From Microscilla marina ATCC 23134 (GTDB taxonomy: Bacteria > Bacteroidota > Bacteroidia > Cytophagales > Microscillaceae), in the NCBI RefSeq assembly GCF_000169175.1, contig NZ_AAWS01000070.1:1-38836 (forward strand): 38,836 nucleotides of DNA, given 5' to 3'. The first letter of the stretch is position 1. The number at the start of each line of letters is the position of its first letter. The position numbers and the translations under genes are program-made. The notes under the pieces were generated by a model. That model did not search any database. It saw only the letters and a program-made list of their open reading frames with translations, and had not been told where the DNA came from. Positions 8,874-35,512 of this stretch are shown here, piece after piece.

Positions 8874-11525
8874 ATGGACTCCAAAACCATAAGACAAAAG
8901 TTTCTGGATTTTTTCAGAGAAAAGCAGCATCAAATTGTTGATTCGGCTCCTTTAGTAGTAAAAAACGACCCAACTCTGATGTTTACCAATGCTGGTATGA
9001 ACCAGTTCAAAGACTTCTTTTTAGGCACCAAAACTGCCGAAAACCGACGTGTGGCCGACACCCAGAAATGTTTGAGGGTATCGGGCAAACATAATGACCT
9101 GGAAGAGGTAGGACACGACACCTACCACCACACTATGTTCGAAATGTTGGGCAACTGGTCGTTTGGCGACTACTTTAAGAAAGAAGCCATTGCCTGGGCG
9201 TGGGAGCTGCTAACCGAAGTATTTGAATTGCCCAAAGATCGTTTGTATGTAACAGTGTTTGAAGGCGACAAAGGAGACAGCCTGGAGCCCGATCAGGAGG
9301 CTTTTGATATTTGGAAAAAATATATCAACGAAGACCGCATCATTTACGCCTCCAAGGAAGATAACTTCTGGGAGATGGGCGAAACTGGTCCTTGTGGTCC
9401 TTGCTCTGAGATTCACATAGACTTGCGCGACGCCAACGAGATAGCTAAAACACCAGGCAAAGGGCTGGTAAACCAAGACGACCCGCAAGTAGTTGAAATC
9501 TGGAACCTGGTATTTATTCAGTTCAACCGCATGGCAAATAAGTCGCTGCAAAACTTGCCCGATAAACACGTAGATACAGGAATGGGCTTTGAACGCTTGG
9601 CAATGGCTATTCAGGGTAAAAAATCAAACTACGACACTGACGTGTTTCAGCCAATGATTCAGTATTTGGCTAAAGTGGCAGGCACCCAATACGGCAAAGA
9701 AGAAAAGATTGATATTGCACTAAGGGTAATAGCTGACCACATTCGCGCCATTTCTTTTGCCATTACCGATGGGCAGTTGCCCGGCAACAATGGGGCAGGG
9801 TATGTGATCCGCCGTATTTTGCGCCGAGCAGTACGTTATGGCTACTCTTACTTAGGCTTCAATGAGCCATTCTTACATACTCTAGTGCCTATGCTAAGCG
9901 AGCAATTCGCCGAGGTTTTCCCAGAGCTGAAGCAGCAACAAGCGCATGTAAGTAATATTATTATACAAGAAGAAAAAAGTTTTTTGCGTACCCTTGCCAA
10001 TGGTTTGAAACTATTGGATGAAGTAGTAGCGAAGACCAAAGAAAAGCAGCAAAAAGAAATTGCCGGAATCGATGTGTTCACTTTGTCTGATCGTTATGGC
10101 TTTCCGTCTGATTTGACCAACCTGGTAGCAAGCGAAAATGGTTTGGGTATAGACGAAGCTGGCTTTAAAGAAGAATTAAAGAAACAAAAATTACGTTCTC
10201 AGCAAGATGCCCAAAAGTCTACTGGAGACTGGATTGTGCTCAACAGCGGCGAGTCGGAGTTTATCGGCTATGACGAAACTTCCAGCTTTACTAAAGTATT
10301 GCGTTACCGCGAAATAGAAGTAAAGAAGAAAAAACAATACGAAATTGTATTGGAAACCACGCCATTTTATGCCGAAAGTGGAGGACAAGTAGGAGATACT
10401 GGTTCGCTTGAGTTTAGGGCAGAAGCAGGTACGGTAACTGTACCTGTGATTGATACCAAGAAAGAAAACGACTTGATTATCCATTACAGTCCTAAGAATG
10501 ATTTTACCAAAATAGCTGACTTGGCTCAGGTAGAGGTGTTTGCTCAAGTAAAAGAACAACGCCGTCGCCTGACCGAAAACAACCACAGTGCGACTCACTT
10601 GGTACACTCGGCGTTGCGTCAGGTATTGGGGCAACACGTAGAGCAACGTGGGTCGTTGGTAAACGACGTTATTTTACGCTTTGACTTTTCGCACAACGCT
10701 AAAATGACCGATGAGGAAATAGCAGAAGTAGAGCGCATTGTCAATGAGAAAATTCGTGAAAATATTGCCCTGGACGAAAGACGTGCTGTACCTTATAAAG
10801 AGGCCATCGAGAGTTTAGGAGCTACAGGTTTGTTTGGCGAAAAATACGGCGATACGGTAAGGGTCATTACTTTTGACGAAAACTACTCGCGTGAATTATG
10901 CGGTGGTTGTCACGTGCCAAGTACCGGGGTGATTGGTTTCTTTAAGATTATTACTGAGGCTTCAGTGGCTTCAGGGGTGCGACGCATAGAGGCAGTAACT
11001 GCTACCAAGGCAGAAGAATATGTGCAAAACCAGGTGGCTTTGGTAAATCAGGTAAAAGACTTGTTGAAAAACCCTAAAGATTTGCCTAAAGCAATAGAAA
11101 GCCTTATCAAAGAAAAAACAGACTTGAGCAAACAAATAGAGGTATTGGAAAACCAACAAGTACAGGCGCTCAAGCAAGGCTTGCTCGATACTGTGAAACA
11201 AACCAACGGCATCAACTTTATTGCCCAAAAGGTGAGTTTACCTTCTGCTGATGCCTTGAAAAACCTGGCGTTTGACGTACGTAAAAACCAGGATAACTTA
11301 TTTATGGTGCTGGCTTCCGATATTAAGGGCAAACCCCAAATCGCCGTAATGATTTCTGACAACCTGGTAGAAGAAAAGTCGCTTAATGCGGGCAAAATCG
11401 TCAAAGAACTTGCTCGTGAGATCAAAGGCGGTGGTGGTGGACAAGCTTTCTTTGCAACTGCTGGAGGCAAAGATGCGACCGGACTCGATAAAGTAGTGGA
11501 ACGTGCCGAAGAGTTTGTGGCGTAG
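8874..11525 (+). CDS. alaS: Alanyl-tRNA synthetase
   Basis: Charges tRNA-Ala and hydrolyses mischarged Ser/Gly-tRNA. At 883 residues it has normal full length. The N-terminal class II catalytic domain starts MDSKTIRQKFLDFF and contains TLMFTNAGMNQFKD. The editing domain has both zinc/hydrolysis motifs, HSATH at ~571 and CGGCH at ~676-680. A coiled coil at ~730-770 and the C-Ala domain, ending in the Gly-rich KGGGGGQAFFATAGGKD segment, complete the protein. The ATG at 8874 fits the family N-terminus. The gene stands alone with its own terminator. Confidence 0.98.
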   Translation: MDSKTIRQKFLDFFREKQHQIVDSAPLVVKNDPTLMFTNAGMNQFKDFFLGTKTAENRRVADTQKCLRVSGKHNDLEEVGHDTYHHTMFEMLGNWSFGDYFKKEAIAWAWELLTEVFELPKDRLYVTVFEGDKGDSLEPDQEAFDIWKKYINEDRIIYASKEDNFWEMGETGPCGPCSEIHIDLRDANEIAKTPGKGLVNQDDPQVVEIWNLVFIQFNRMANKSLQNLPDKHVDTGMGFERLAMAIQGKKSNYDTDVFQPMIQYLAKVAGTQYGKEEKIDIALRVIADHIRAISFAITDGQLPGNNGAGYVIRRILRRAVRYGYSYLGFNEPFLHTLVPMLSEQFAEVFPELKQQQAHVSNIIIQEEKSFLRTLANGLKLLDEVVAKTKEKQQKEIAGIDVFTLSDRYGFPSDLTNLVASENGLGIDEAGFKEELKKQKLRSQQDAQKSTGDWIVLNSGESEFIGYDETSSFTKVLRYREIEVKKKKQYEIVLETTPFYAESGGQVGDTGSLEFRAEAGTVTVPVIDTKKENDLIIHYSPKNDFTKIADLAQVEVFAQVKEQRRRLTENNHSATHLVHSALRQVLGQHVEQRGSLVNDVILRFDFSHNAKMTDEEIAEVERIVNEKIRENIALDERRAVPYKEAIESLGATGLFGEKYGDTVRVITFDENYSRELCGGCHVPSTGVIGFFKIITEASVASGVRRIEAVTATKAEEYVQNQVALVNQVKDLLKNPKDLPKAIESLIKEKTDLSKQIEVLENQQVQALKQGLLDTVKQTNGINFIAQKVSLPSADALKNLAFDVRKNQDNLFMVLASDIKGKPQIAVMISDNLVEEKSLNAGKIVKELAREIKGGGGGQAFFATAGGKDATGLDKVVERAEEFVA

Positions 11526-11553
11526 TTTCTCAAATTTAGAAGTAACCAATAGA

Positions 11554-11625
11554 GGGGTTTAAGAGGTCAAGCTATTCAAGTAATTTTTTTCTTGAGTAAA
11601 CAGACCTCCTAAAGCCCTTTTTTTA
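11554..11625 (+). terminator. Terminator after alaS
   Basis: A long imperfect stem: GGGGTTTAAGAGGTC (11554-11568) pairs with GACCTCCTAAAGCCC (11603-11617), with a smaller CAAG/CTTG stem in the loop, and is followed by TTTTTTTT. Confidence 0.85.
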
Positions 11626-11749
11626 TAAGCATTTGAGCAACATTATTGGGGCATAACTTCGTTTTAACTGGAAACCGACAACCTACCTTTTAGATTAGTT
11701 TATTTTCAAACCCTCGTTATTCAACTTTTATTTTAGTAATGGTTGAAAA

Positions 11750-11935
11750 ATAAAATATTCATTTGGAGATAGAAATTTGCTACCAAGACGAGGCATTTAG
11801 CCTTTGGTAAAGCTCAGCACAGCGAAGCCGTAGCTATCGGTTTTTGCGTTCGTAGCAGTGCTACGGACAATAAAAACTCACAGTTCCGGCGAACTGCCGG
11901 GGTAACGAAGCATTGGTGGTAAAGATCATTTCCTA
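11750..11935. repeat. Palindrome-rich intergenic block
   Basis: No gene is present. It contains a perfect 15-bp palindrome CGTAGCAGTGCTACG (11851-11865) and a hairpin CCGGC-GAACT-GCCGG (11886-11900) within a segment richer in GC than its surroundings. It resembles other intergenic repeat matter in the window, for example GCGCTACGGCAAG near 22765, but I cannot define ends. Confidence 0.45.
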
Positions 11936-11960
11936 AATAGAGAAGTTATTTTTTGTCCGT

Positions 11961-12133
11961 TACTTAGTACATTGTAAAATAAGTAAGTTGTCATTTAGTT
12001 CGAGTTTATTTTGTTTGCTGGCGATCTTTACAAATAGAGCATAGCCAAAGCTACGCGATTTTTGTAAAGAGAAGTCAGAGGGCAAAAGAAGCCGAAAAAA
12101 GCATAAGATATTTATTTTACAGTGTACTTAGTA
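11961..12133 (+). repeat. Hairpin repeat (family B), copy 1, with terminal inverted repeats
   Basis: A 173-bp element bounded by 22-base terminal inverted repeats matching at 20/22 (11961-11982 and 12112-12133; core TACTTAGTACATTGTAAAAT). Inside is the family core GCATAGCCAAAGCTACGC (12039-12056), flanked by complementary arms CTTTACAAAT (12026-12035) and ATTTTTGTAAAG (12058-12069). Copies 2 to 4 of the family lie at 27719, 29735 and 37679. It has the form of a MITE, with no coding capacity. Confidence 0.75.
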
Positions 12134-12178
12134 TTATTAATTGACTGAAAAATCATTACAGGAATCCAAAACTGTCTG

Positions 12179-12186
12179 TATATTTG
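12179..12186 (+). promoter_or_regulatory. Candidate -7 element for response regulator gene
   Basis: TATATTTG matches TAnnTTTG exactly, 30 bases before the start codon. No clear -33 TTTG is seen at the expected distance. Confidence 0.35.
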
Positions 12187-12215
12187 AGGTCAACGATTGA
12201 TAAAGAACACTTAAT

Positions 12216-12611
12216 ATGGGAAACACCATTACAAATCAACCAAAAGTATTGATCATAGAGGATGACGCAATCAATGCCTTTGTTCTACAAAAATTTATTG
12301 AAAAAAAATATACAGCAGTGCTGGCAAAAAACGGACATGAAGCATTGAGTTTGGTAAAGGACGCCTTATTTGACGTGATTTTGATGGATATTAACCTGGG
12401 CGACGAAAACCTGGATGGGGTACACCTGCTCCAAAAAATCAGGGCAATTACCGGCTATGCCAATGCCAACATATTTGCAGTCACTAGTTTTGCCATGCGT
12501 GGCGATAAGGAATCATTTTTGGCGGCAGGTTTTAACCGTTATTTTTCTAAACCCATTGAGCATTCTGTCATAATGAAAGCTATAGATGAAGCCGTAAGCA
12601 GCGAGACATAA
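12216..12611 (+). CDS. Stand-alone response regulator receiver domain (CheY-like)
   Basis: A 131-residue single-domain phosphoreceiver. The acidic pair is at Asp16-Asp17 (IIEDDAINAF), the phosphoacceptor Asp58 in VILMDINLG, the conserved Thr/Ser in FAVTSFAM and Lys in YFSKPI, so all catalytic residues are present. There is no output domain, so it should act through protein contacts or as a phosphorelay intermediate. No kinase gene is adjacent. It converges on the MscS-like gene with only 32 bases between stops and no evident terminator, so antisense overlap of the transcripts is possible. Confidence 0.93.
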   Translation: MGNTITNQPKVLIIEDDAINAFVLQKFIEKKYTAVLAKNGHEALSLVKDALFDVILMDINLGDENLDGVHLLQKIRAITGYANANIFAVTSFAMRGDKESFLAAGFNRYFSKPIEHSVIMKAIDEAVSSET

Positions 12612-12643
12612 GGTTTGATGCTGTTTTGTCCTGTGTAGCCCAT

Positions 12644-13384
12644 TTATACGAGCTTTTTACTCCACTTTTGTAAGTAGGTTTCCGTTTTTTGGAAATAGCG
12701 TGGATGCAAACTGTAAATAATGATTTCAAACGTATAACACACCTCATTCTCCTTGCTTAGCTTAATGTATGGTTTTTTAGTCACCGAAGCCCAGGGGGTG
12801 TTCAAAATAAGTTCCCGTAATTTATCAATACTTTCGGTAGGGGTATACCTCTTGGGTAGGTCAAGCTGAAAAGAGTGATTTTTAATTGCCTCGCTCGATT
12901 TGGGTTGCACCCTGGTTACCCCCGAAACTGTATGATAGGGTATACTGATAATTTCTCCACGAAAATTTTCTAGTTTTACACCAAAATACCCCAACTCTTT
13001 TACTCTACCCTCCAGGGCTTGTACCTTGATGCGTTCGCCTATAGTAAAAGCTCCTTCGAGCTTAAGTACTACTCCGGCTATAAAGTCACGAATGGCAAAC
13101 CACGACAAAGCCACAATAATGACCAGCATAATACCCAGTATAATGAGGGTGTACACCAATTTGTTGTTAAACATGCCTTGCACGCCCCATATTACCCAGC
13201 TAAACCACACAATGCCCTCTACTACAGGCAATAAACGCTCAAATTTTAGTTGTCGGTTTTTTTGCTCTGGTACCCAATAATTGACCAATTGCTTGATAAA
13301 ACGAAATAACAGAAATATACCTATCCCCAGCAATATAAACCAGATCACTGAGTAATACGAAATGTTAAAATTTATATCTTTCAT
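12644..13384 (-). CDS. MscS-like mechanosensitive ion channel
   Basis: A small-conductance mechanosensitive channel family member of 246 residues, releasing solutes upon membrane tension. Three hydrophobic helices (~10-30, ~48-72, ~76-107) lead into the MscS beta domain: SWFAIRDFIAGVVLKLEG, then FTIGERIKVQALEGRVKELG and GEIISIPYHTVSG, which correspond to the pore-lining helix and the family's G-D/E-R-V...G-V...-G pattern. The C-terminal cytoplasmic domain (~170-246) is short but complete. It lies 109 bases downstream of the giant transporter gene on the same strand, which fits a shared role in osmotic or ionic balance (inference). Confidence 0.9.
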   Translation of the reverse strand: MKDINFNISYYSVIWFILLGIGIFLLFRFIKQLVNYWVPEQKNRQLKFERLLPVVEGIVWFSWVIWGVQGMFNNKLVYTLIILGIMLVIIVALSWFAIRDFIAGVVLKLEGAFTIGERIKVQALEGRVKELGYFGVKLENFRGEIISIPYHTVSGVTRVQPKSSEAIKNHSFQLDLPKRYTPTESIDKLRELILNTPWASVTKKPYIKLSKENEVCYTFEIIIYSLHPRYFQKTETYLQKWSKKLV

Positions 13385-13493: not shown

Positions 13494-16400
13494 TCAAATC
13501 ACCCCCATCTTTGTCAATTCCTGAAGCAAGTGGTGCTCCAGGTAAGGGTTAATCTTAAGTACATTGTTGTTTGTTTCTTTCACAATTCCGGCACGCTTAA
13601 GCACCTTTACTCTATTGTATACCACTCGTTCGTCTTCCATCGTTATTCTTAGCAAACGATCCAGGGTAAGGTGTTTATGCAAGATAAACTGTACAATCCA
13701 TACCAACCAATCTTCAGGCAATTGCCCCAATATCTCTGTGTTTGGTTTTGAGGGTTCTCTAATGACCAATACCTCACCATCCACCTTTTCGATGTGCGAA
13801 ATCCACACCTGTAGCGCAATGCCCACATTGCCTTGCGAATAATCAAAATACTTGCTCATCAAACGGGCATACTTCCACTCTGTCATATCTTTCTCAGCGG
13901 TGCCTTTCCATTCAAACGTAATAGGGCTGGAGCGGTGACGAAACAATATGATGTCTTTGAGTGCCTCGGCATTAAACGGAGCACAGTTGATGGTAGTCAA
14001 GAAATAATTCTCAATTTTCTTTACCATATTAATAAAGCGGAGCGAGTACTGGTTGATATTTAAAATAAAAAAGCACTGCTCACTGTAGGTATCCAGCAAG
14101 TCGAGCAACATCTCTAATACCTGCCAGCCATTGGGGCTACGTTCCCACCAAAGCTCCAAATCGTTGAAAACCAGTACTGTATTGAACGAAAGCTCGGCAA
14201 ATATCTCAGGGTATTCTCCTTCAATGCCTACCCCATTTTCAAAAGCACGTTTAAAATCAGTTACATCGATAGAGCCATACGCTGGTGGGGCAATATAATG
14301 AACAAAGCGTTTGGAAAAGTACTGTTCGGCAATGTGTTGCGATAAAAACGTGCGCCCAGAGTTATAGTCACCTGTGATCATGAGTGCTCCTCCAAACCCA
14401 TCTTTAAATCGATTAATGGCCTTTTGAGCTTGTTCCAGTTCAGATTTTCTACCCACCCAAAAATCATCACCAAACGTGTTTTTATGGGTAAACAACTGGT
14501 GATAATACACAGGCAAGGCTTCAATTACTTCAGGTTTGGGTGAAATGGCTTCTACCAAATTCAATACACCCTCTACCTTTGAGTCTTCTTTTTTATTGAT
14601 CGATTGGAGTTGTTGGGCTGCCAATATGCCCTCACTGCGGCGATACCACAAGCGGGTAATACTGTTTTTGATGCGTGATTGTACCCTCAACAAACTTACC
14701 CCACCTACCCGCGACAATCGGGTTTTGTTTTCCCTGCTGCGAATGTACTGTTCGGCGTTATCGGCCGACCTGCTAATAACATAAGGGCTAAGTTTTACTA
14801 CGGTATTGCGAAACATATCTGCCATGCTACTAGATACCTGCTGCTGGATATTTTCAATTTCTTTGCGTTCCTTGTCGATTTGCTGCTTTTCTTCGGCAAG
14901 CAAAGTTTTGACCTGTACTTTTATTTCTTTTTGCTTGACATCGGTCGCATTTTGTAGTTGATTGATATGAAAAGACAGCATGCGTTTTACCTCATTTGCC
15001 ATATTACTGGCACGTTGAAACTTACGCGGCAAATCGTTGGTATAATCTACCAAAGGCTCAATCAGGTTGAACTGAACAAAATAGTCCAGCAAACGATTGA
15101 CAGACACTGACATAGACTCCAGCTCCTCCAGTTCTTCAGTTTCCAGGCTACTCAACGACTCCTCGTGAATCATATCAATGGTTTCGGAGTAGCTCGCCAT
15201 CAAATCTTTTAGTTTGCTCAAAAACTTATCTACCGATTGTTTGAAATACCCCTCCATATTTACCGCATATTGGGTACGCACAATCCAGGTTTTGTATTGT
15301 GCCTCATCGTTGATATCAAAGTTGTCAATAAAACGCTCCAATACGTTCAGTGGTTTATTGATATTCTTTCCTATCAGGCGATTGAGGTCATTTTCCAACC
15401 CACTGAGCAAGCCTGCCAGTTGTTTTCTAAACGAAAGCAAACGTGCCTCTATCAAAGTGGTCTTGGTTACCAAAGCCTGGTTGTGTTTCCACAAATCGGG
15501 CAACTCTTCTATACTTGCCCTTAGTTTGCGGGCTTTTTTAAACTCTTTTCGTCCTTTGCGTAATAACTGATTAGTTTCCAGGGCGTCAAAGTTTTGACTG
15601 ATTTCTTGTATTTCGCGATGAGTTTCATACAGCAAAATATGGTTGTATTTGTATACCTTTTCACGTTGCCCATTGGTAATTTCAAGAATAAAATTTTTGA
15701 GCTGGTCATATTCTTCATCTATCTTTTCGGTCAACTTGGTAGCGTGTGCTTCTATATCAGTTGCCTCTGGTTGGTCACGTTCAGCCCTGAGCAAGTTCAA
15801 CTCTTTTTCTATCAGGTCAAAACTGTGGGCGGTTTTGCGCAGTAACTCCTGAATGCGGGTATTGTAGGCTATATTAGACCGGTCAAAGTCGCGGTACAAC
15901 TCCGAAAAGGTCTTTTGCCCCATTGTTTGTACATAAAACTGGAGCACCTTGTGGTGTTTAAACTTATAACTTAAGGGTTTTTTAGAAAATCTGTATTTCA
16001 GCCTGTTTTGCCAATTGAGGTTGCGTATTTTTTCCTTATTGGCCTCATTTTTTTCAAAATACGCTTGGTCGTACTTAATCGTAATAGTCGCTGGGTTTTG
16101 ACCAATCACTTGGGTAATTTGTTTGTATAACCACTCAGACCCTTCTACCAGGTTGTCATACTTCTCAGCAAGTTGATTGTCAATAAAGTTATTAATCAGT
16201 TCTCCGCTTTGCTGCATAAAGTGCAAGTGAATACCTAATACTTGTTGGTCTTCGTTAGCATCACCTATTTTATCTACTTGTGCCTTTAGTTGATCAAAGC
16301 TCTGTTTGATCAGTTTGCGTAAAGCTTGAGTAAGTTTTTTGTCGATGGCATAGTTAGGGTTAATATATTGGTGGCTATAGTCCAGCAACACATTACGCAA

Positions 16401-18959
16401 ATCTTTGTGCAGTTGAGTGATAATGTCCGCCAGTTCTTCTTTTTGGGGCAATACCAACTCTGGAATCCGGTATTCGGCAATGTCAGCTTCTTGCTTGGGT
16501 AGTGCATCACTTTCGTTGGTAAGCTCAAGCAAGTTATTAGAAGCAGTCTCAAAATAAGACGACGACTTGGCCATTACCACTGTTTTATCAATTTGGCTAA
16601 TGAGTTGATTGGTATTTTCATAAAACTCAAAATCCAGTTTAGATTTGATTTCAGGCAAACCCAGTATTACCAAGTCAGTATTTGTCGATTCAGCATTGAT
16701 TATTTCCTGATAAGGGCGCTGTTGTACCTCATTGCTAATCACCTTTACCTCAGCTTCAATCCGCATCTCTTCCAACATCAGGGTAATGTTCTTATAAATA
16801 CGGTTTTGGTTCAGGTTATCTTCGCTCACTATCAGGCAGCGTATTTTGGCCTTGCGCCAATCGTCTGACGACTGGATAAACTTGAGCAAGGTCAAGGTAA
16901 GGTTTACATTAAAACTCTTGCCTCTCCACCAAATGTCTATAGCCTCTTGTTTGCCAAATCCATGTGCCTGGTTGTACTGCATCAACAATATATTGTAATC
17001 GAGCTTGACCAGGTTATGCACAAACGAGATAAACTTGGTAGGGTCTTTGGCTTGCCTGCCCCAACCCATGAGTATGGTGTTGGGGTCAAGCCCCGAAAAC
17101 CCATAAGTTTTGGCAATGTTTTCCATTCCATCATATAAGTCGATACAATCGAGCTTACGGGTAAAAAATCCCATAGACGACCCGGTAACCAACGCTCCAT
17201 TGTCTTGTACAAACTGCTGCGGCTTAGAAAACACTACCTCCGACGATTTGCGTTCAACCAGGTGAAAGTCAGACAAAAAACCCAAGCGTCCTACCAGCGT
17301 TTTGCCGAACTGTACCAAATGGGGGCGTGCTTCTTCGCCTCCACTAAACATCACAATGTTAGGTCGCCAGTTGCGTTGTTTGGTTTCTTTGCTTACTATA
17401 GTATAAAGTCCCCTGCGTACTACCGACGCCCACACGCCCTCCCAGACATCGCCAAAGCCCAGTGATATTTGCTTGCGTATCAGGTAAAGAAAAATAGCCC
17501 CAATGATCACAAAAGCTACTACCATAGAGGTAAGGTCCAGGGCAATCATTACAAACAATGTAAAACCAAACCCTGTGAGACTCACAAACTTGGGTATTTT
17601 AAATGTGGGGCGAAAATCGGGACTTGCCCAGCTCTCTAAGAAACATGACAAGTTGATAAAACCATAAGCCGCTAGATAAAACATAGATACTACCTGGGCA
17701 ATGGCATTCAGTTCTCCAATAAGCACTCCGGCTTCGGCAATTACAAAAGTAAGAAGCAAAGCATTGCGTGGTTCATTATTTTTGCCCACTCCTTTGCCAA
17801 AGAGCTTTGGGGTGATCTTGTCTACCGACATGGCCTGCAAAATGCGGGGTGCCCCCAAAATGCCGCCCAACGCTGATGATAAAGTAGCTCCCCAAATACC
17901 TGCCAATACAAAGGCAGGAGAAATAAAAGCAATTTCTTTGAGAATGTTGCTATTGTTACGCAAAATGTGGGGGTCTATAGTATAGGCAAGAAAAATAGAC
18001 AGCACAATGTATACTACCAGTCCTACTACAATAGATGCCATTGTACCCACTGGAATAGTGCGTTTAGGGTTTTTGAGGTCGCCCGACATAGCTACCCCTG
18101 CAGTAAACCCGGTAACCGCTGGAAAAAACACGCCAAATATCACCCCTAACGATGCGTCTGGGCTAGGTGCCAGAGTAGGCGTTTTGGGAGCAAACTCCCG
18201 GCTTCCCATAAAAATGGCCACCAGCGACAACGCAATGGCTGCCATAATAAAAAACTGGGTTTTAAGGGCAAATGAGGTGCTTATAAAAGCAATGGTAGTA
18301 ACAAATATAACGGTGGCAGTGCCCGCCAAACGGAGGTCGTTGACTGTAACAGCCCGCGAATTCGCTAAAATGACCCCTTGGATGGTAGAAAATTGTTGTT
18401 CAGCCACTTGCTCTTTAAGGGCGAGCTTTAGAGCATTGATAAAGGCTTCTTTGTTATGGAATACCACCTGAAGCGCATCACTGTTTTTGAGTGGTACCAA
18501 AATATCATCTATGCTGCCCACTTGTAAGGTTTTAAGCATAGGAGCCGTAATGCTCTGTTTGATGGCAATGAGTGCATTTTCGTTGATTTGGTGCCCTGAT
18601 GCCATCCCGATAAAATCGAGAAAACTTTCAGAAAAACCAATGGCATACAAGGCTATGCTCAAGGCAGTACCCACAAACAGGGTAATGCCAATGGCACCTC
18701 CAATGGGTAAGCCCAGGCTCCGGGAAAGAATGTAGTACAACCCGCCCGCCTGTACCTTTTTATCGGTAGAAATAGACGATACGCTCAACCCGGTAGATAC
18801 TGAAATAACGTGGGCAATTAATACAATAATAATGGTCCAAAATAAGCCGGCTTGCCCAACAACCCATCCCAAACGCAGGTACATGATTACCCCCAGAATA
18901 GTAAGTACTGAGGGGGTAAACACTCCTGTAAATGCCCCAAATTTTTTAGATTTTGCCAT
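13494..18959 (-). CDS. SLC12-type cation-chloride cotransporter fused to coiled coil, P-loop NTPase and winged helix
   Basis: An 1821-residue fusion. Residues ~1-540 are an APC-fold membrane transporter of the SLC12 (Na-K-Cl cotransporter) type: FTGVFTPSVLTILGVIMYLR, GGLYYILSRSLGLPIGGAIG, GVFFPAVTGFTAGVAMSGDL and LGGILGAPRILQA are all characteristic. Residues ~545-800 match the SLC12 cytosolic region (NIVMFSGGEEARP, GLDPNTILMGWGR). Then ~600 residues are charged and helical with long coiled coils (~840-1460). Residues ~1500-1740 form a P-loop domain: GDYNSGRT (Walker A with Arg in place of Lys, ~1530), VLVFNDLELWW (Walker B, ~1595), FILNIN (sensor) and an ORC/AAA-like NAEALKDIILFRHR. The last ~70 residues look like a winged helix (LLRITMEDERVVYNRVKVLKRAG). 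Typical bacterial members lack the last 1000 residues. The reading frame is intact. Confidence 0.9.
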   Translation of the reverse strand: MAKSKKFGAFTGVFTPSVLTILGVIMYLRLGWVVGQAGLFWTIIIVLIAHVISVSTGLSVSSISTDKKVQAGGLYYILSRSLGLPIGGAIGITLFVGTALSIALYAIGFSESFLDFIGMASGHQINENALIAIKQSITAPMLKTLQVGSIDDILVPLKNSDALQVVFHNKEAFINALKLALKEQVAEQQFSTIQGVILANSRAVTVNDLRLAGTATVIFVTTIAFISTSFALKTQFFIMAAIALSLVAIFMGSREFAPKTPTLAPSPDASLGVIFGVFFPAVTGFTAGVAMSGDLKNPKRTIPVGTMASIVVGLVVYIVLSIFLAYTIDPHILRNNSNILKEIAFISPAFVLAGIWGATLSSALGGILGAPRILQAMSVDKITPKLFGKGVGKNNEPRNALLLTFVIAEAGVLIGELNAIAQVVSMFYLAAYGFINLSCFLESWASPDFRPTFKIPKFVSLTGFGFTLFVMIALDLTSMVVAFVIIGAIFLYLIRKQISLGFGDVWEGVWASVVRRGLYTIVSKETKQRNWRPNIVMFSGGEEARPHLVQFGKTLVGRLGFLSDFHLVERKSSEVVFSKPQQFVQDNGALVTGSSMGFFTRKLDCIDLYDGMENIAKTYGFSGLDPNTILMGWGRQAKDPTKFISFVHNLVKLDYNILLMQYNQAHGFGKQEAIDIWWRGKSFNVNLTLTLLKFIQSSDDWRKAKIRCLIVSEDNLNQNRIYKNITLMLEEMRIEAEVKVISNEVQQRPYQEIINAESTNTDLVILGLPEIKSKLDFEFYENTNQLISQIDKTVVMAKSSSYFETASNNLLELTNESDALPKQEADIAEYRIPELVLPQKEELADIITQLHKDLRNVLLDYSHQYINPNYAIDKKLTQALRKLIKQSFDQLKAQVDKIGDANEDQQVLGIHLHFMQQSGELINNFIDNQLAEKYDNLVEGSEWLYKQITQVIGQNPATITIKYDQAYFEKNEANKEKIRNLNWQNRLKYRFSKKPLSYKFKHHKVLQFYVQTMGQKTFSELYRDFDRSNIAYNTRIQELLRKTAHSFDLIEKELNLLRAERDQPEATDIEAHATKLTEKIDEEYDQLKNFILEITNGQREKVYKYNHILLYETHREIQEISQNFDALETNQLLRKGRKEFKKARKLRASIEELPDLWKHNQALVTKTTLIEARLLSFRKQLAGLLSGLENDLNRLIGKNINKPLNVLERFIDNFDINDEAQYKTWIVRTQYAVNMEGYFKQSVDKFLSKLKDLMASYSETIDMIHEESLSSLETEELEELESMSVSVNRLLDYFVQFNLIEPLVDYTNDLPRKFQRASNMANEVKRMLSFHINQLQNATDVKQKEIKVQVKTLLAEEKQQIDKERKEIENIQQQVSSSMADMFRNTVVKLSPYVISRSADNAEQYIRSRENKTRLSRVGGVSLLRVQSRIKNSITRLWYRRSEGILAAQQLQSINKKEDSKVEGVLNLVEAISPKPEVIEALPVYYHQLFTHKNTFGDDFWVGRKSELEQAQKAINRFKDGFGGALMITGDYNSGRTFLSQHIAEQYFSKRFVHYIAPPAYGSIDVTDFKRAFENGVGIEGEYPEIFAELSFNTVLVFNDLELWWERSPNGWQVLEMLLDLLDTYSEQCFFILNINQYSLRFINMVKKIENYFLTTINCAPFNAEALKDIILFRHRSSPITFEWKGTAEKDMTEWKYARLMSKYFDYSQGNVGIALQVWISHIEKVDGEVLVIREPSKPNTEILGQLPEDWLVWIVQFILHKHLTLDRLLRITMEDERVVYNRVKVLKRAGIVKETNNNVLKINPYLEHHLLQELTKMGVI

Positions 18960-19912: not shown

Positions 19913-21841
19913 CTAAAGCTGTGCTTCCAGTTCATCTATTTTCATTACCAGTTCTTCCCAAGCATCATTGGCGGCAGCCAATTCCTCTTGTACTTTGGCA
20001 AATTCCTGTTGGGTTTTTTCTAGTTTTTCAGGATCGTTATAAATAGTGTTGTCAGCAAGCTTGAGCTCTATCTCCTCTTGCTTTTTTTCTGATTTAGTGA
20101 CCTTTGCTTCAGCTTTTTCGAGCGCCATTTTGGTTTCTCGTATTTCACGCTTAATTGCCTTTATTTCGGGCGAGTCTTGTGGCTTTGGCTTTTTTTCCTT
20201 CTTTTTCTTCTCTTGAGGAGCCGCTGCTTGCGCCATTTTTTTTGCCAGTTGTTTTTGGTACCAATCGTTGTACTCGGCAAAAGTGCCCAGATATTCTTTA
20301 ATTTCTTCGTCTTCGATGTACCAAATCTTATTGGCCACCTGCGAAATAAAGTGACGGTCGTGCGATACTACTACAAAAGTACCTTCGTATTGATCGAGTG
20401 CCTGCATCAATATATTGACCGATTGAATGTCTAGGTGGTTGGTAGGCTCATCGAGTAGCAGAAAGTTGGCTTCAGAGATCAGCACCTTGGCTAGAGCCAC
20501 CCTTGACTTTTCTCCTCCCGAAAGAATTTTAATTTTCTTAAATACGTCGTCATCCTTAAACAAAAAGCAACCCAATACGCTTCGTAGTTCCGTTTCTGTT
20601 TTTGCCGAGCCCGCTTGTTTGAGTTCCTCTAGTATTTCGTTTTCTACTACCAACGACTCGAGCTGGTGCTGGGCAAAAAACGAGAACAACACATTGTGCC
20701 CTAGTTTGCGTTCGCCCTTTATTTGTTCGGTACCTGCAATAATGCGCAACAGAGTAGACTTACCCTTTCCGTTGGCACCCACCAATGCTATTTTATCGCC
20801 TCGTTCTATGCGTGCTGTGGTGTTTTTCAAGATAGTAAGGTCGCCGTAAGCCTTGCCTATATTGTCGAGCTCCATTACCTGACGCCCCGACTTTTGCCCA
20901 AAGTTAAACTTAAAATTTACCTTGGCAGTTTCGTCAATTACCTCATCAATCAAGTCCATTTTTTCCAGTGCCTTTACTCTTGATTGTACCTGGCGTGCTT
21001 TGGTAGATTTAGATCGAAAACGCTCAATAAAACGTTCAGTTTGACGTATTTTGTCTTGTTGGTTTTCGTAGGCAGATTGTTGTATTTCCTGACGGAGCTC
21101 GCGTTCTTTCAGATAAAAAGAATAATTGCCCGCATAAATATTTAGCTTTGCCTGTGACACCTCTACCGTGGTTTTTACAGCATTGTCCAAAAACTGGCGG
21201 TCGTGCGATACTACTATAATGGCGCCTTCGTAGCTATGAATGTAGTTTTCTATCCACTGAATAGACGGTAAATCTAAGTGATTGGTAGGTTCATCGAGCA
21301 TCAGCAAGGCGGGCTTTTGCAATAGCAATTTGGCAAGCATTACCCGCATACGCCATCCTCCCGAAAATTCCTGCAAAGGGCGTTGCAAATCAGCAGTTTT
21401 GAAGCCCAAACCTTCAAGAATTTCTTCGGCTTTTGCTTGCATAGAGTAGCCTCCCAACATCTCGAAACGTTCTTGTAATTTGGCAAGTTTGTCTACCAAC
21501 GAGTCGGTATAATTTACCTCCATCTCGTGCAAGGTTTTATCAATTTGCTCCTGGAGTTGATTTTGTTCTTCAAAAGCCTGCATGGCCACCTCCAGAATAC
21601 TCTCGTTGGTAAGGTAAGAAAGCAAGTCTTGGTTAAGAAAGCCAATCGTACAATCTTTTGCCTTAGAAATGGTGCCCTCGTCGGGAGCATATTCACCTGA
21701 AATAAGTCTTAACAGGGTAGATTTTCCAGTACCATTGGCTCCAATGAGTCCTATCCGGTCTTTGGGTTTGATATGAAGGTTGGCATCTTTGTACAACGGT
21801 CGGCTACCGAAATAAAACGACATGTTACTAATGGCGAGCAT
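19913..21841 (-). CDS. ABC-F family ATPase
   Basis: A soluble protein of 642 residues with two fused ABC domains and no membrane segment. Domain 1 has GANGTGKST (34-42), the signature EFSGGWRMR and MLDEPTNHLDL; domain 2 has GANGKGKST, LSGGEKSRV and LLDEPTNHLDI. Between them is the linker (P-site tRNA interaction motif region, ~240-310), rich in Arg/Gln. The C-terminal ~110 residues are a Lys/Glu coiled coil. ABC-F proteins bind the ribosomal E site and modulate translation. The arrangement is that of the housekeeping YheS/Uup-like group, and I see no specific sign of an antibiotic-resistance member. It is transcribed alone. Confidence 0.95.
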   Translation of the reverse strand: MLAISNMSFYFGSRPLYKDANLHIKPKDRIGLIGANGTGKSTLLRLISGEYAPDEGTISKAKDCTIGFLNQDLLSYLTNESILEVAMQAFEEQNQLQEQIDKTLHEMEVNYTDSLVDKLAKLQERFEMLGGYSMQAKAEEILEGLGFKTADLQRPLQEFSGGWRMRVMLAKLLLQKPALLMLDEPTNHLDLPSIQWIENYIHSYEGAIIVVSHDRQFLDNAVKTTVEVSQAKLNIYAGNYSFYLKERELRQEIQQSAYENQQDKIRQTERFIERFRSKSTKARQVQSRVKALEKMDLIDEVIDETAKVNFKFNFGQKSGRQVMELDNIGKAYGDLTILKNTTARIERGDKIALVGANGKGKSTLLRIIAGTEQIKGERKLGHNVLFSFFAQHQLESLVVENEILEELKQAGSAKTETELRSVLGCFLFKDDDVFKKIKILSGGEKSRVALAKVLISEANFLLLDEPTNHLDIQSVNILMQALDQYEGTFVVVSHDRHFISQVANKIWYIEDEEIKEYLGTFAEYNDWYQKQLAKKMAQAAAPQEKKKKEKKPKPQDSPEIKAIKREIRETKMALEKAEAKVTKSEKKQEEIELKLADNTIYNDPEKLEKTQQEFAKVQEELAAANDAWEELVMKIDELEAQL

Positions 21842-31248: not shown

Positions 31249-31671
31249 TTAACCGTTGGCTAACCAGTGATGGGCAGCTTTCATGTCTTTAAAAGACTTG
31301 GCAGCAATGGCGTACCTTACTGCTTGGTTTACATTTTCTTTCAATGTATTGATCGCTACTTCGCCAAAAATATTGTCGGCATTGATGATGGCAAGTTTTT
31401 TCATGCCTGCTTTATACATTTGCAGATTCCAGGTATCTCTCAGCCAGTCTTGCTCTGCTTTTTTTACTGCGCCTAGTTTTTCGGTGTTTAACACCACTCC
31501 TGTGTTGGGCTGAACAGCCGTTGTATAAAGTTTATAGCCGTTTTCGAATAGTTTAATAAGCTGTGGACTTGTCAAAAATCCATGAATATTTATTGTAAGA
31601 CATTGGTTAGACGCACTATATTCTACAGTTGCGTTCTTTTCTTTGTAAAGGACTTGGTTACTATTGCTCAT
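31249..31671 (-). CDS. Small STAS/SpoIIAA-like protein
   Basis: A 140-residue cytoplasmic protein starting MSNSNQVLYKEKNATVEYSA. It alternates strand and helix: QCLTINIHGFLTSPQLIKLF, GVVLNTEKLG, a Trp-bearing helix (QDWLRDTWNLQMYKAG), then KKLAIINADN and a C-terminal helix with HHWLANG. This matches the pattern of STAS-like proteins that are numerous in Cytophagales, and it is broadly similar to the gene at 22843-23271. No phosphorylatable Ser in a clear STAS motif can be assigned. The role is unknown; regulatory protein contacts are the family expectation. Confidence 0.75.
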   Translation of the reverse strand: MSNSNQVLYKEKNATVEYSASNQCLTINIHGFLTSPQLIKLFENGYKLYTTAVQPNTGVVLNTEKLGAVKKAEQDWLRDTWNLQMYKAGMKKLAIINADNIFGEVAINTLKENVNQAVRYAIAAKSFKDMKAAHHWLANG

Positions 31672-32077: not shown

Positions 32078-35000
32078 TTAATCCAATAGGTATTTATCTA
32101 TTTGCTTAAAGAATTGCTGAAGCAATGCCTCGTTCAAAGCTTTTTGGTAATCAGGGTCTTCTATTTTTATCCCATACGCCTTATCTCTAAACATTTTGGG
32201 CTCGTAATTACGACGGGCTTTTTGGTCTTGAAAACTAGTCCGGCGAAAAACGTTTTCGGGGCGTTTATACTTCTCCAACCCTTGGGGCAATACTGCCATC
32301 AGGTATTTTTGCTGTGACCCCGATTTGGCGGTAAAGTGGTGTACTCCACCTTCGTTTTTGAAATATAAATAAGGCAACGTTCCCTTAAACTCGATCTCTA
32401 TCCCAATCAGGTTTTGTGGCTCAGGATTTTTTCGTTTGTCATAGGGTTGCCGCTGGTAAATTCTGCGCCTAACAACCGGCTTTTTTTCTTTGCCATTCTG
32501 GTTATCTTCCTCCACTTCTTCGTTCAACACTTCTGTTTCTTCGCTTATTTCTTCTTCTGGTTTGGTCTTCGCGTTGGTTTCCATGACATTGCCCTCCAGG
32601 TAGCCATGTTTGTTGTGCCAAAGGGTGTACATTTCTACCGACAAGTTGTGGGCTTTGGCAAACTCTATGTAAAGATCGGTAATGGTAAACAAAGACAAAC
32701 GTGCACCATAAATACCCATAGAACAAACTGAAAACTCAGGATTTTCCAATGATACCAGGTGTGCCTTAAGTGTCATAAAGTTTTGCGCCCATAGTTTAAA
32801 CTGGGCATGCAGGGCTATTTCATCCTTTTTTTCTTCTACTCCATTCAAAATCAAGAAGTTGTCCGACTCTATCTCCTCTATTTCTTCAAATGATGATTCA
32901 AATTTTTTGCGCAAATTAATCAATTCATAATAATACTTGCGTTGCTCCTCATTTTTCCAGAAATCGTTTTCTTTCTTGCGCTTTTTGGCTTTTTGGAGCT
33001 TACGTTCCAGTTGGTCTATTTTGCTCAGAAAGCGGGCAAAGTAACTGCCTCGGTCTATAGTATTGGTTTCGCGGCGGTAGCGGGTAATAAGCGTAATAAA
33101 ATCTATAAACTTAAGTTTTTCGCTTTCGCTGATCACCTTTTGGGTAATTTGAATGTCATCGCGGCGTTGAATCTCAAATACTATAGTGGCAGTTTGGGCA
33201 CCATTGTCTACATTGGCCACATAGGTTTTTACCCCTTTGTTATCTTTACTTTTTTTGGTGGGCTTCTCAAGCGGTTTTTTCAAAAACACATCCACCTGCA
33301 AAGGTTGTAAAAAATCGTACTCGTTCAATGCCTGCGACAAAGGTACAATGAGTTGGGTCTGTAGTGTTCGCTGTAGAAAACGGGCGCCATAGTTGGCATT
33401 GTACCCCTTTTTGCCCAGATAATCGAGCACATTTTGCCCTATGTTTACTTCCAGGTTGCGCCCTTTGATACCCTCCCGTTTTTTAACCAAATCTATTTCA
33501 CGATCAATAATTTTACGCACAATGGGCTTATCCAAAGGAGCAAAAGCAATGACTCTGTCTAAACGGTTGAACAGTTCAGGACGGAAGTAGGCTTGTACTT
33601 CTGACTTAAAGTGAGCCGCTGCCGCCTCGGCTTCGTTTTTGGTTTCTACAAAACCAATCGACCCCGTTTGGAACGAGCGTGCCCCAATGTTGGAGGTCAT
33701 AATAATGATAGTACTACAAAAATCTGCCACCCTGCCCCTGGCGTCAGTCAGGCGTCCTTCGCCCAATATCTGCAGGAGCAAATCATAAAAAGAAGGGTGC
33801 ACTTTTTCGAGTTCATCAAACAATAATACCGAAAAAGGATCTTGCCGTATCGACGAAGTAAGCAAACCCTCGCCGCTGGTACCGTCTCCAGTCAGGCGCA
33901 TAATAGCGCGGGTATCGGTATATTCGCTCATGTCAAAACGAATCATCTTGTTGCGGTTGCCAAACATAAACTGGGCAAGCACTTTAGCCATTTCGGTTTT
34001 ACCCACCCCGGTGGGCCCCACAAAAAGTAGCGAAGCCAACGGCTTGCCCCGGCGTACTACCGCCGCCTTAATGGCCACCAAAAGGTCTGATACGGTATGA
34101 ATGGCCTCATTTTGCCCATAGATATTGGTCTGGAAATAATGCTGCATTTTGTCTACCTCCAAGGCTATTTCGGGATTAATCATAAATTCGGGCATCCCCG
34201 TTTCCTGACAGAAGCGCTCAAAAATGGCCGGCTTGTCTATGATCTTAATTTCCTTTTTCTCTTTGTCAGAAACAATAGAGGCTAAAAAATGGATTGTTTT
34301 GCCGGGCAGTTCAGAGTAGGGTGTGTACCACTGTTGCAAGCGCAGTATTTCTTGAATGGCTTCTTCTTCTACGGCACAATTTTTTTGGGTGGCAATGTAG
34401 TTTACCTTCTTGGTGACAATTTCCAACACCTGCTCATCAGACATATCTTCTATGTTGATGGTGTTCAATAAACCCAAATAGCCAGGCGAGCGCATTTCTA
34501 TCCGAGAAGCTTCCTCAGGAGTACATTCGCTAATGATGGTTATTTCTCCCCTGGAAATATAATCACGCAGATAGTCTGCCATCGACATATTGTTGCCCAC
34601 ATACTGCCCTACTTCAAACAATTCAGAGAAATTGCTCACGTACAAAATGTCGCCCGACTTGCGCAGTTCACGGCACACATCGGCCAAGTACTCTTCCCAA
34701 CTACCCAGGCCAGTAAGACGGTGGAGCAATTGAGCGGCTGATACCTCCCACACCGAAACATCACTTAACCCGTGTTGACCTTTTACCCGGCAAAACTCTT
34801 TGATGAGGGCAGTTTTTCCCTTGCCCGATCCTCCCACAACGAGCACACTATTTCGGTGCTTGGCTTTCATAGTAGTAAGCAACTGGTCATACTCTTTGGT
34901 CAAGCCAAACAGCTCTACTTCGTTTGCGCTAAGGCGATGGGCTATTTGGGGCAAGATAGACTCTTGGTCGCGTTGCTGAATATCTTCTTGCTCTGATAGG

Positions 35001-35512
35001 GTATAGAAGTTAAACTCAGTGGGCACGGTGTGTATTTTTATGTTCGAAAACCACTGAGTAGTAAGCAATGACGTAGGCGATTTGAGGCGTTTTTTGCGAA
35101 TAAACTCCAGTTGAATGTTGTCTTTGAGGTTCTCTTTGAGTTCTTCTAGGCTGTTTCCCGCAGATTGTACGCCCAAAGTAGGCACAAAACCCAAGAATTG
35201 TTGGTGGTGATTTTCCAGGTAAAAAAGTTCGTAACTAAGGGTAAGTTTAGGAAAAAACTTTTGTTTGGACGCCTCCAGTTCTATCTCTATAGTTTCCTGA
35301 ATCAATGGTTGGTCCAGCACATATTTTAGCAATGGATGATACTGCCCTTGAGTGAGCAGGTTTTTATGAATTGCCTTGTAAAGCTGACGTGCTACTCCTA
35401 TTTCCGAAACATTGAGGCGCACGATGTCATTAAAATGCAGAGGTGAGGTAACAGTTACTCCCGACTGGTGGGTGACTTCACTTATTAATAGGTTTAATTT
35501 GATCTTTTTCAA
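32078..35512 (-). CDS. ClpB-like AAA+ ATPase fused to a release-factor-2-like domain
   Basis: A 1144-residue protein. Residues ~1-190 are strand-rich, with a HicB-like stretch (FVPTLGVQSAGNSLEELKEN). AAA domain 1 has Walker A GGSGKGKT (~227), but the expected Walker B reads LYVSNFSELFE, without the acidic pair. AAA domain 2 is a canonical ClpA/B module: VGPTGVGKTEM (~500), LLFDELEKVHPSFYDLLLQI (~565), IIMTSNIGARSF (~607) and a small C-terminal domain. After a long basic coiled coil, residues ~850-1100 resemble class I release factors: DFWKNEEQRKYYYELINL (helical domain), GARLSLFTITDLYIEFAKAH (PCRF) and EIEFKGTLPYLYFKNEGGVH. No GGQ domain is present. The start is TTG; the next Met is ~210 residues in, and an upstream stop leaves no ATG. 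No protease-docking loop can be assigned. It may act on stalled ribosomes (speculative). Confidence 0.88.
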   Translation of the reverse strand: MKKIKLNLLISEVTHQSGVTVTSPLHFNDIVRLNVSEIGVARQLYKAIHKNLLTQGQYHPLLKYVLDQPLIQETIEIELEASKQKFFPKLTLSYELFYLENHHQQFLGFVPTLGVQSAGNSLEELKENLKDNIQLEFIRKKRLKSPTSLLTTQWFSNIKIHTVPTEFNFYTLSEQEDIQQRDQESILPQIAHRLSANEVELFGLTKEYDQLLTTMKAKHRNSVLVVGGSGKGKTALIKEFCRVKGQHGLSDVSVWEVSAAQLLHRLTGLGSWEEYLADVCRELRKSGDILYVSNFSELFEVGQYVGNNMSMADYLRDYISRGEITIISECTPEEASRIEMRSPGYLGLLNTINIEDMSDEQVLEIVTKKVNYIATQKNCAVEEEAIQEILRLQQWYTPYSELPGKTIHFLASIVSDKEKKEIKIIDKPAIFERFCQETGMPEFMINPEIALEVDKMQHYFQTNIYGQNEAIHTVSDLLVAIKAAVVRRGKPLASLLFVGPTGVGKTEMAKVLAQFMFGNRNKMIRFDMSEYTDTRAIMRLTGDGTSGEGLLTSSIRQDPFSVLLFDELEKVHPSFYDLLLQILGEGRLTDARGRVADFCSTIIIMTSNIGARSFQTGSIGFVETKNEAEAAAAHFKSEVQAYFRPELFNRLDRVIAFAPLDKPIVRKIIDREIDLVKKREGIKGRNLEVNIGQNVLDYLGKKGYNANYGARFLQRTLQTQLIVPLSQALNEYDFLQPLQVDVFLKKPLEKPTKKSKDNKGVKTYVANVDNGAQTATIVFEIQRRDDIQITQKVISESEKLKFIDFITLITRYRRETNTIDRGSYFARFLSKIDQLERKLQKAKKRKKENDFWKNEEQRKYYYELINLRKKFESSFEEIEEIESDNFLILNGVEEKKDEIALHAQFKLWAQNFMTLKAHLVSLENPEFSVCSMGIYGARLSLFTITDLYIEFAKAHNLSVEMYTLWHNKHGYLEGNVMETNAKTKPEEEISEETEVLNEEVEEDNQNGKEKKPVVRRRIYQRQPYDKRKNPEPQNLIGIEIEFKGTLPYLYFKNEGGVHHFTAKSGSQQKYLMAVLPQGLEKYKRPENVFRRTSFQDQKARRNYEPKMFRDKAYGIKIEDPDYQKALNEALLQQFFKQIDKYLLD

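Follow-up and report, generated by a model that had tools for sequence, protein, structure and literature searches.

We analysed positions 1 to 38,836 (forward strand) of contig NZ_AAWS01000070.1 from Microscilla marina ATCC 23134 (assembly GCF_000169175.1; 9.77 Mb); this whole stretch of 38,836 nucleotides is referred to as the window. Near its right end lies a long reverse-strand gene, here named A, the product of which, judged by its anatomy (that is, by sequence comparison and predicted fold), is very probably an Hsp100-type ATPase carrying a release factor (RF) without its catalytic GGQ domain as its C-terminus (Table 1). The TTG start of the gene is supported by three relatives (L025, L026 and L027) in which Met opens the frame at this place, and the nearest A that was found in the public collection is from an uncultured Microscilla sp. 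(97% identity across the first 437 residues). The same genome also encodes two related proteins, B (a 1152-residue frame on contig C2) and C (a 750-residue frame on contig C35).

Conventional family searches return nothing for the C-terminus of A. With HMMER, no Pfam family matches its last 410 residues at E ≤ 10, PHROGs gives no match to the C-terminus alone, and PF03462 (PCRF), searched across 20 A-positive genomes, finds the genuine RFs and no A or B locus at E ≤ 10. The first-pass annotation of the window, which had described A as a ClpB-like unfoldase with an RF2-like C-terminus lacking GGQ, had named profile searches without an RF or PCRF match as what would refute it, and on that line the HMMER result would speak against the idea; profile–profile comparison reverses this verdict. 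In hhalign, 19 A C-termini align with 21 RF2 sequences over 188 columns with a probability of 95.9% and a score of 72.1 (probability of 53.7% against 30 RF1 sequences), and the controls reach scores of at most 23.3 and probabilities of at most 1.4% for 150 column-shuffled RF2 profiles, scores of 15.6–19.6 for reversed profiles and at most 24.2 for nine segments taken from elsewhere in the A, B and C proteins. The predicted structure points in the same direction: an AlphaFold2 model of A, made from an 18-row alignment with no release factor among its rows, has a mean predicted local distance difference test score (pLDDT) of 80.6, mostly above 90 in the RF-like part with the exception of an acidic insert, and Foldseek returns 31 matches to it in the PDB at E ≤ 0.001, with a best E of 8.8e-7. 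A release factor is named in the titles of 27; the remaining four (4v63, 4v4s, 8akn and 9d7r) bear ribosome-complex titles, and we take their matched chains, from their length or the known composition of these complexes, to be release factors as well. RF2-like DFW and E.GvH motifs lie in this C-terminal arm, and the strings quoted in the original description (DFWKNEEQ, GARLSLFTITDLYIEFAKAH and EIEFKGTLPYLYFKNEGGVH) are indeed present in A in that order. On profile comparison and predicted fold, the whole part of A that begins near residue 802 is a release factor of the RF1/RF2 type minus the GGQ domain; the ClpB-like ATPase with a GGQ-less RF2-like C-terminus is thus borne out, with the same answer obtained for the paralogue B (see below).

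A profile of the GGQ domain (domain 3) matches neither A nor B (hhalign probability ≤0.5%), in agreement with the earlier claim that the catalytic domain is missing, and an RF2 profile (n = 17) from which this domain has been cut aligns with A over 219 columns (96.2%), the match continuing across RF domain 4 up to the C-terminal end. The match of the tail to domain 4 therefore indicates that only the GGQ domain is cut out (6 of 51 release factors, on which the cutting pattern failed, were left out of the domain-cut profiles). The first-pass annotation had read the C-terminal part as following the order of RF1/RF2 domains and had overlooked domain 4, which in A joins the domain 2-like region directly, at the place where release factors have the GGQ domain. 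The bare string GGQ does occur in two A arms, between the domain 2-like and domain 4-like regions in L070 and in the domain 2-like region in L072; that of L070 (A at 9992-13225) lies within FYGGQPRRVY and looks like chance, because relatives carry other residues there, as they also do at the site in L072. The codon-reading loop, counted from the E of E.GvH to the strand-end P, is 30 residues long in both RF1 and RF2 of Microscilla marina and 23 long in A. Across 19 A rows it spans 22–25 residues by alignment columns, and the SPF/PxT stop-codon motif is absent; for B, where the search pattern itself sets the length that is printed, residue 23 is the strand-end Pro in 5 of 8 rows. As a consequence of the shortened loop, any ribosome binding by A would be codon-independent. 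Neither this shortening nor the A-B-C paralogue set, with its ordered cassettes across several phyla, figured in the first-pass annotation.

Table 1. Gene A and its predicted parts, in window coordinates (residue limits approximate).
Feature	Position	Strand	Basis or remark
Gene A, Hsp100-type ATPase with release-factor-derived C-terminus	32078..35512	-	1144 aa, TTG start; family alignments
N-terminal domain, residues ~1-185, not recognised as Clp_N	34958..35512	-	Conserved in 7 A proteins
AAA D1, residues ~186-430; has Walker A but no Walker B acidic pair and no Arg finger at the aligned position	34223..34957	-	Alignment with E. coli ClpA/ClpB
AAA D2, residues ~445-734	33311..34180	-	Pfam AAA_2 and ClpB_D2-small; alignment
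Beta linker, residues ~735-801	33110..33310	-	AlphaFold2 secondary structure
RF domain 1-like helical region, residues ~802-928, RF2-type DFW motif	32729..33109	-	hhalign to RF2, model, Foldseek
RF domain 2-like region, residues ~929-1075, carries GTLPYLYFKNEGGVH	32288..32728	-	hhalign, model, Foldseek
Acidic insert inside the domain 2-like region, residues ~971-1012	32477..32602	-	pLDDT <50; length differs between relatives (alignment)
RF domain 4-like C-terminus, residues ~1085-1144	32081..32260	-	hhalign to RF2 minus domain 3

The motor was aligned with E. coli ClpA and ClpB and three other Clp proteins of Microscilla marina, using 18 A, 9 B and 7 C rows (those of L025 and L062 are near-copies of each other). 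By phmmer, A matches solved ClpA over both AAA domains (query 201-746), and Pfam places AAA_2 at residues 490-653 and ClpB_D2-small at 660-732; among the best 25 of 34 Pfam matches none is Clp_N, and among the 25 of 43 NCBIfam matches listed none to a named subfamily (ClpA, ClpB, ClpG, ClpK or TssH) attains the curated cut-off, the best being ClpA with 315 bits where 993 are required. Every one of the 34 rows retains Walker A in D1 and D2 and the DE of Walker B in D2, and none of them has both D1 Walker B acids (0/18 for A). In the ten A, B and C rows in which the further motifs were compared, D2 retains its Arg finger and sensor 2, and D1 has no Arg finger where the alignment would place it (the B of L066 has RRF three residues before it). 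Judged by these motifs, D2 is likely to be an active ATPase. The D2 pore loop GYVG is deleted in 18/18 A, 9/9 B and 7/7 C and is present in the three other Clp proteins of Microscilla marina; a D1 pore loop (KYLGE or KFLGE) occurs in 7/7 C, and not in A or B. The AAA module of A, which had been described as canonical ClpA/B, is accordingly not canonical: its D2 ATPase motifs are intact, but the D1 Walker B acids and GYVG are lost. The loss of GYVG from all 34 rows also makes a classical threading unfoldase doubtful.

By sequence and modelled fold, A belongs to a set of three paralogues, in which B has the same kind of arm and C, the protein of which stops after D2, has none. In a midpoint-rooted tree, A, B and C each form a single clade with 100% bootstrap and are joined by a long branch to five ClpA/B/C-type rows, and the three family trees agree broadly. 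The C-terminus of B aligns with RF1 at a score of 40.5 and a probability of 49.0% (shuffles ≤21.6 and 0.8%), and E.G.H and [TS]DLR.G occur in its arm in 8/8 rows. Its AlphaFold2 model gives 26 Foldseek matches at E ≤ 0.001 (best 2.5e-7), 24 of which are titled release factor and two of which (8akn and 4v4s) are presumably release-factor chains. Two loci needed separate handling: the A of Cytophagales MAG (metagenome-assembled genome) Prado042 (L064:2636-5912) is split into two overlapping frames, through assembly error or because the gene is broken, and its pieces were used apart (the N-terminal frame in the family alignment and the C-terminal frame in the RF profile) and left out of the motor alignments and tree; in L075 no clean frame of A was read, and its B was dropped from the domain-cut comparison onward because its C-terminus looks frame-shifted.

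The genes stand side by side in the order A-B-C in six loci (L062, L066, L069, L072, L074 and L025), and, with the first possible starts taken, the end of A abuts or overlaps that of B in L066, L069, L072 and L074; in Microscilla and several other genomes, A, B and C lie on separate contigs. In a sample of 56 genomes (20 A-positive and 36 A-negative), B is found at E ≤ 1e-20 in 19/20 A-positive genomes and C in 18/20, and each of them in 0/36 A-negative genomes; weak C matches in G325 (incomplete MAG G117, 72% complete) and G338 are apparently A itself. A scan of genome contigs with two peptide patterns matched 201 stretches and confirmed 18 A loci, a lower bound because the scan depends on these patterns. 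Within the Bacteroidetes, the A loci belong to Microscillaceae, Xanthocytophaga and MAGs of Cytophagales, Saprospiraceae and other Bacteroidetes; elsewhere, they belong to a Planctomycetota MAG, Candidatus Uabimicrobium (which we take to be a member of the Planctomycetota), a gammaproteobacterial MAG, Hahella, Albitalea and two Variovorax. The system is rare, being present in 6 of 57 relatives and 7 of 291 genomes of the order (its own genome counted in both), in 1 of 395 of a phylum sample (its own genome only) and in 1 of 399 of the order of the Albitalea genome (Albitalea itself).

Ordinary termination and rescue are retained alongside A. PF03462 is over cut-off in 20/20 A-positive genomes, at two places in 18 of them (split in G336, and a fragment in G338) and at one place in the MAGs G325 and G326, and transfer-messenger RNA (tmRNA) is over cut-off in 18/20. 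As release factors and tmRNA are kept in most A-positive genomes, we reject the view that A replaces normal termination or rescue and regard it as an accessory. A GGQ protein encoded beside the cassette and acting in trans was likewise rejected: a scan of neighbouring open reading frames (ORFs) for GGQ strings gave one real release factor, about 8 kb from A on the opposite strand in L065, which is probably the prfB of that genome. Carriage by plasmids or phages was rejected as well: tblastn of A against 2281 plasmid and 152 phage records gave only Clp AAA similarity and no place covering 80% of A, its C-terminus alone had no match in the plasmid records, and of 100 pattern-matching stretches in viral contigs 0 were confirmed as relatives. 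In L063, a tape-measure protein gene (L063:6924-9937; CIS_TMP, PF19268, E 7.9e-67), split in two frames, lies directly upstream of A. CIS_TMP is found at E ≤ 0.001 in 8/18 A-locus genomes and over cut-off in 7/18, without a match in the Hahella, Albitalea, Xanthocytophaga and two Variovorax genomes; on this count, a general link of A to extracellular contractile injection systems (eCIS) was rejected, other injection-system genes not having been searched. In L070 (15290-18213), two ORFs of 409 and 410 residues downstream of A share their first 50 residues, a probable duplication.

RF1 and RF2 (prfA and prfB) share with A the order of domains 1, 2 and 4 and the predicted fold; A differs in having neither the GGQ domain 3 nor SPF/PxT, in a loop seven residues shorter and in its fusion to a 730-residue Hsp100 motor. 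With ClpA, ClpB and ClpC it has in common two AAA domains, the D2 Walker A and B motifs, Arg finger and sensor 2, and D2-small, but it lacks the D1 Walker B acids and D2 GYVG, has another N-domain, and is one of three co-occurring paralogues with RF arms on A and B. In a survey of release-factor evolution (PMC6514570), 'Clp' is absent, by text find, from the main text in the form available. Among the best-ranked matches in the open-licence literature, no title describes an Hsp100–release factor protein. To our knowledge, no fusion of an Hsp100 motor with a translation factor has been described, and a three-paralogue Hsp100 set with two RF arms is not a variant of any known system.

Several proteins nevertheless offer partial likenesses, although the aeRF1 superfamily to which Balon belongs has a fold different from that of RF1/RF2, PrfB3 has no ATPase and torsins have a single AAA domain. 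Balon, a hibernation factor related to aeRF1 but lacking NIKS and GGQ, is reported to bind the A site of the ribosome (PMC10901736), and offers a working analogy (a release-factor relative minus its codon-reading and GGQ motifs); it differs in having no ATPase and in that A-site binding has been shown for it and is a prediction for A. Vms1, with an eRF1-like domain, partners the AAA+ protein Cdc48 in ribosome-associated quality control (PMC5989216). Cdc48/p97 with Vms1/ANKZF1 can therefore be compared with A in the way they may work, an AAA+ motor being coupled to a release-factor-like domain, but these are separate proteins, the fold is eRF1-like and the catalytic Gln is retained. PrfB3 of land-plant chloroplasts is RF2-derived and has lost SPF and GGQ as A has, but binds an mRNA 3′ untranslated region (UTR) (PMC5897788). 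Torsins are Hsp100 relatives without aromatic pore loops, and differ from A in residing in the endoplasmic reticulum and perinuclear space and in using cofactors such as LAP1 (PMC5425593).

Taking these observations together, we tentatively favour as the most likely reading, at somewhat less than even confidence, an Hsp100 remodelling machine in which A, B and C share a mixed ring and the RF arms dock it on the ribosomal A site, neither reading a codon nor releasing the peptide. In such a machine, the three proteins would assemble into one ring powered by D2, and the arms of A and B would dock it at the A site or factor-binding centre, a step involving neither codon recognition nor peptidyl hydrolysis; ATP hydrolysis could then remodel the bound target (a nascent chain, a trapped factor, or a complex that has stalled or is hibernating), which would be pulled or pried apart instead of being threaded past aromatic loops in the classical way. 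The A-site direction, which the first-pass annotation had also proposed, can fairly be inferred from release-factor ancestry, and the rescue or quality-control role proposed with it may be right as one among several options. In a more specific form, which we consider possible but rather doubtful, the hetero-oligomer, with its two kinds of GGQ-less arm and an armless subunit, would dock on the A site regardless of the codon and, driven by ATP hydrolysis in D2, clear blocked ribosomes, split them or make them active again, with no peptide released (that is, a bacterial AAA+ machine for ribosome quality control or hibernation). If the arms do dock on ribosomes, bacteria would possess a dedicated ATP-driven ribosome-remodelling machine with a logic parallel to that of eukaryotic Cdc48–Vms1; if they do not, A and B would show, strikingly, how a release factor can lose both its functional parts and still persist in two paralogues.

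A number of observations weigh against ribosome docking. The parts that have been lost (codon loop and GGQ) are those that reach the decoding and peptidyl-transferase centres in release factors, and the remaining scaffold may therefore serve something else; the arm of A has few conserved columns (4 invariant and 7 nearly invariant) and its net charge gives no clear RNA-binding character. The Foldseek template modelling scores of the A model are low (0.18-0.41) and its root-mean-square deviations high, which is expectable with one RF domain absent and a different arrangement, and is still a limit. For B, the hhalign figures are weak against RF1 and more so against RF2 (30.4, 8.1% only), and the model, made from 6 sequences, is of moderate confidence (pLDDT 66.8). 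Not every A-positive genome has both B and C, and an all-against-all blastp of 161 ORFs of at least 120 residues other than A, B and C from 19 loci found recurrences only of common families (short-chain dehydrogenase/reductase and kinase types) or among closely related genomes; with no specifically recurring neighbour, the genomic context gives no hint of the ribosome.

Much of this evidence bears on what we regard as the main rival to a ribosome-docking ring, which we consider unlikely but serious: that the arms no longer bind ribosomes and are a repurposed scaffold, acting as RNA or protein adaptors that select substrates for the ring or hold it together. The loss of both active parts and the scarcity of conserved arm residues fit this, and PrfB3 is an RF2 relative without SPF and GGQ that is reported to bind the petB 3′ UTR (PMC5897788); the retention of domains 1, 2 and 4 together in two paralogous arms across divergent phyla, however, suggests that the whole RF shape matters. 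That RF kinship itself is illusory, the resemblance reflecting chance or coiled coils, is the least probable of all the alternatives: the silence of PF03462 in HMMER and an identity to release factors of 9–16% in the top Foldseek rows of both models would be expected under it, but the shuffle and decoy controls, and two predicted folds that match release-factor chains at E ≤ 0.001, would not.

Three further alternatives were weighed. A ribosome-targeted protease feeder, passing nascent chains or ribosomal factors to ClpP, seems quite improbable; such a hand-over is conceivable because the position that docks ClpP still carries an IGF-type loop in A and C (IGF in Microscilla A, IGL in E. coli ClpA), and a hydrophobic-G-aromatic tripeptide is found there in 12/18 A, 3/9 B and 7/7 C, but the other 6 A deviate (TGF, ISW, IGM, MGL or IGL) and the D2 GYVG loop is gone in every row. 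Still less probable is an accessory defence system in which the arms would imitate or protect translation termination and the complex would come into play when phages infect. The rare, phylum-scattered distribution would suit it, as would PADLOC matches of A to DolB and PDC-M37B; these cover the AAA part, however, and beyond it PADLOC gives a bare hint (a CARF row at E 0.066) and no convincing defence-protein match, none of 10 cassette-flanking proteins (L062, L066, L069, L072 and L074) matches at E ≤ 0.001, and no relative was confirmed on viral contigs and no C-terminus of this kind was found on plasmids. An ATPase of a contractile injection system, akin to ClpV of the type VI secretion system, would account for the CIS_TMP gene upstream of A in L063, but is highly improbable given the 7/18 count and the five genomes without a match.

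Elsewhere in the window, a 140-residue ORF (31249-31671, reverse strand) lies downstream of A and has no Pfam or PHROGs match; it stands beside A in a sister genome too (L060:5553-5969). An 1821-residue protein (13494-18959, reverse strand) combines an amino-acid permease/SLC12 part with a long C-terminal part, and has a weak BrxC/AAA_16-type match near residues 1499-1554. The window also encodes an ABC-F type protein (19913-21841, reverse strand; ABC_tran twice, ABC_tran_Xtn and ABC_tran_CTD), a class that often acts on ribosomes, with no sign that it belongs to A.

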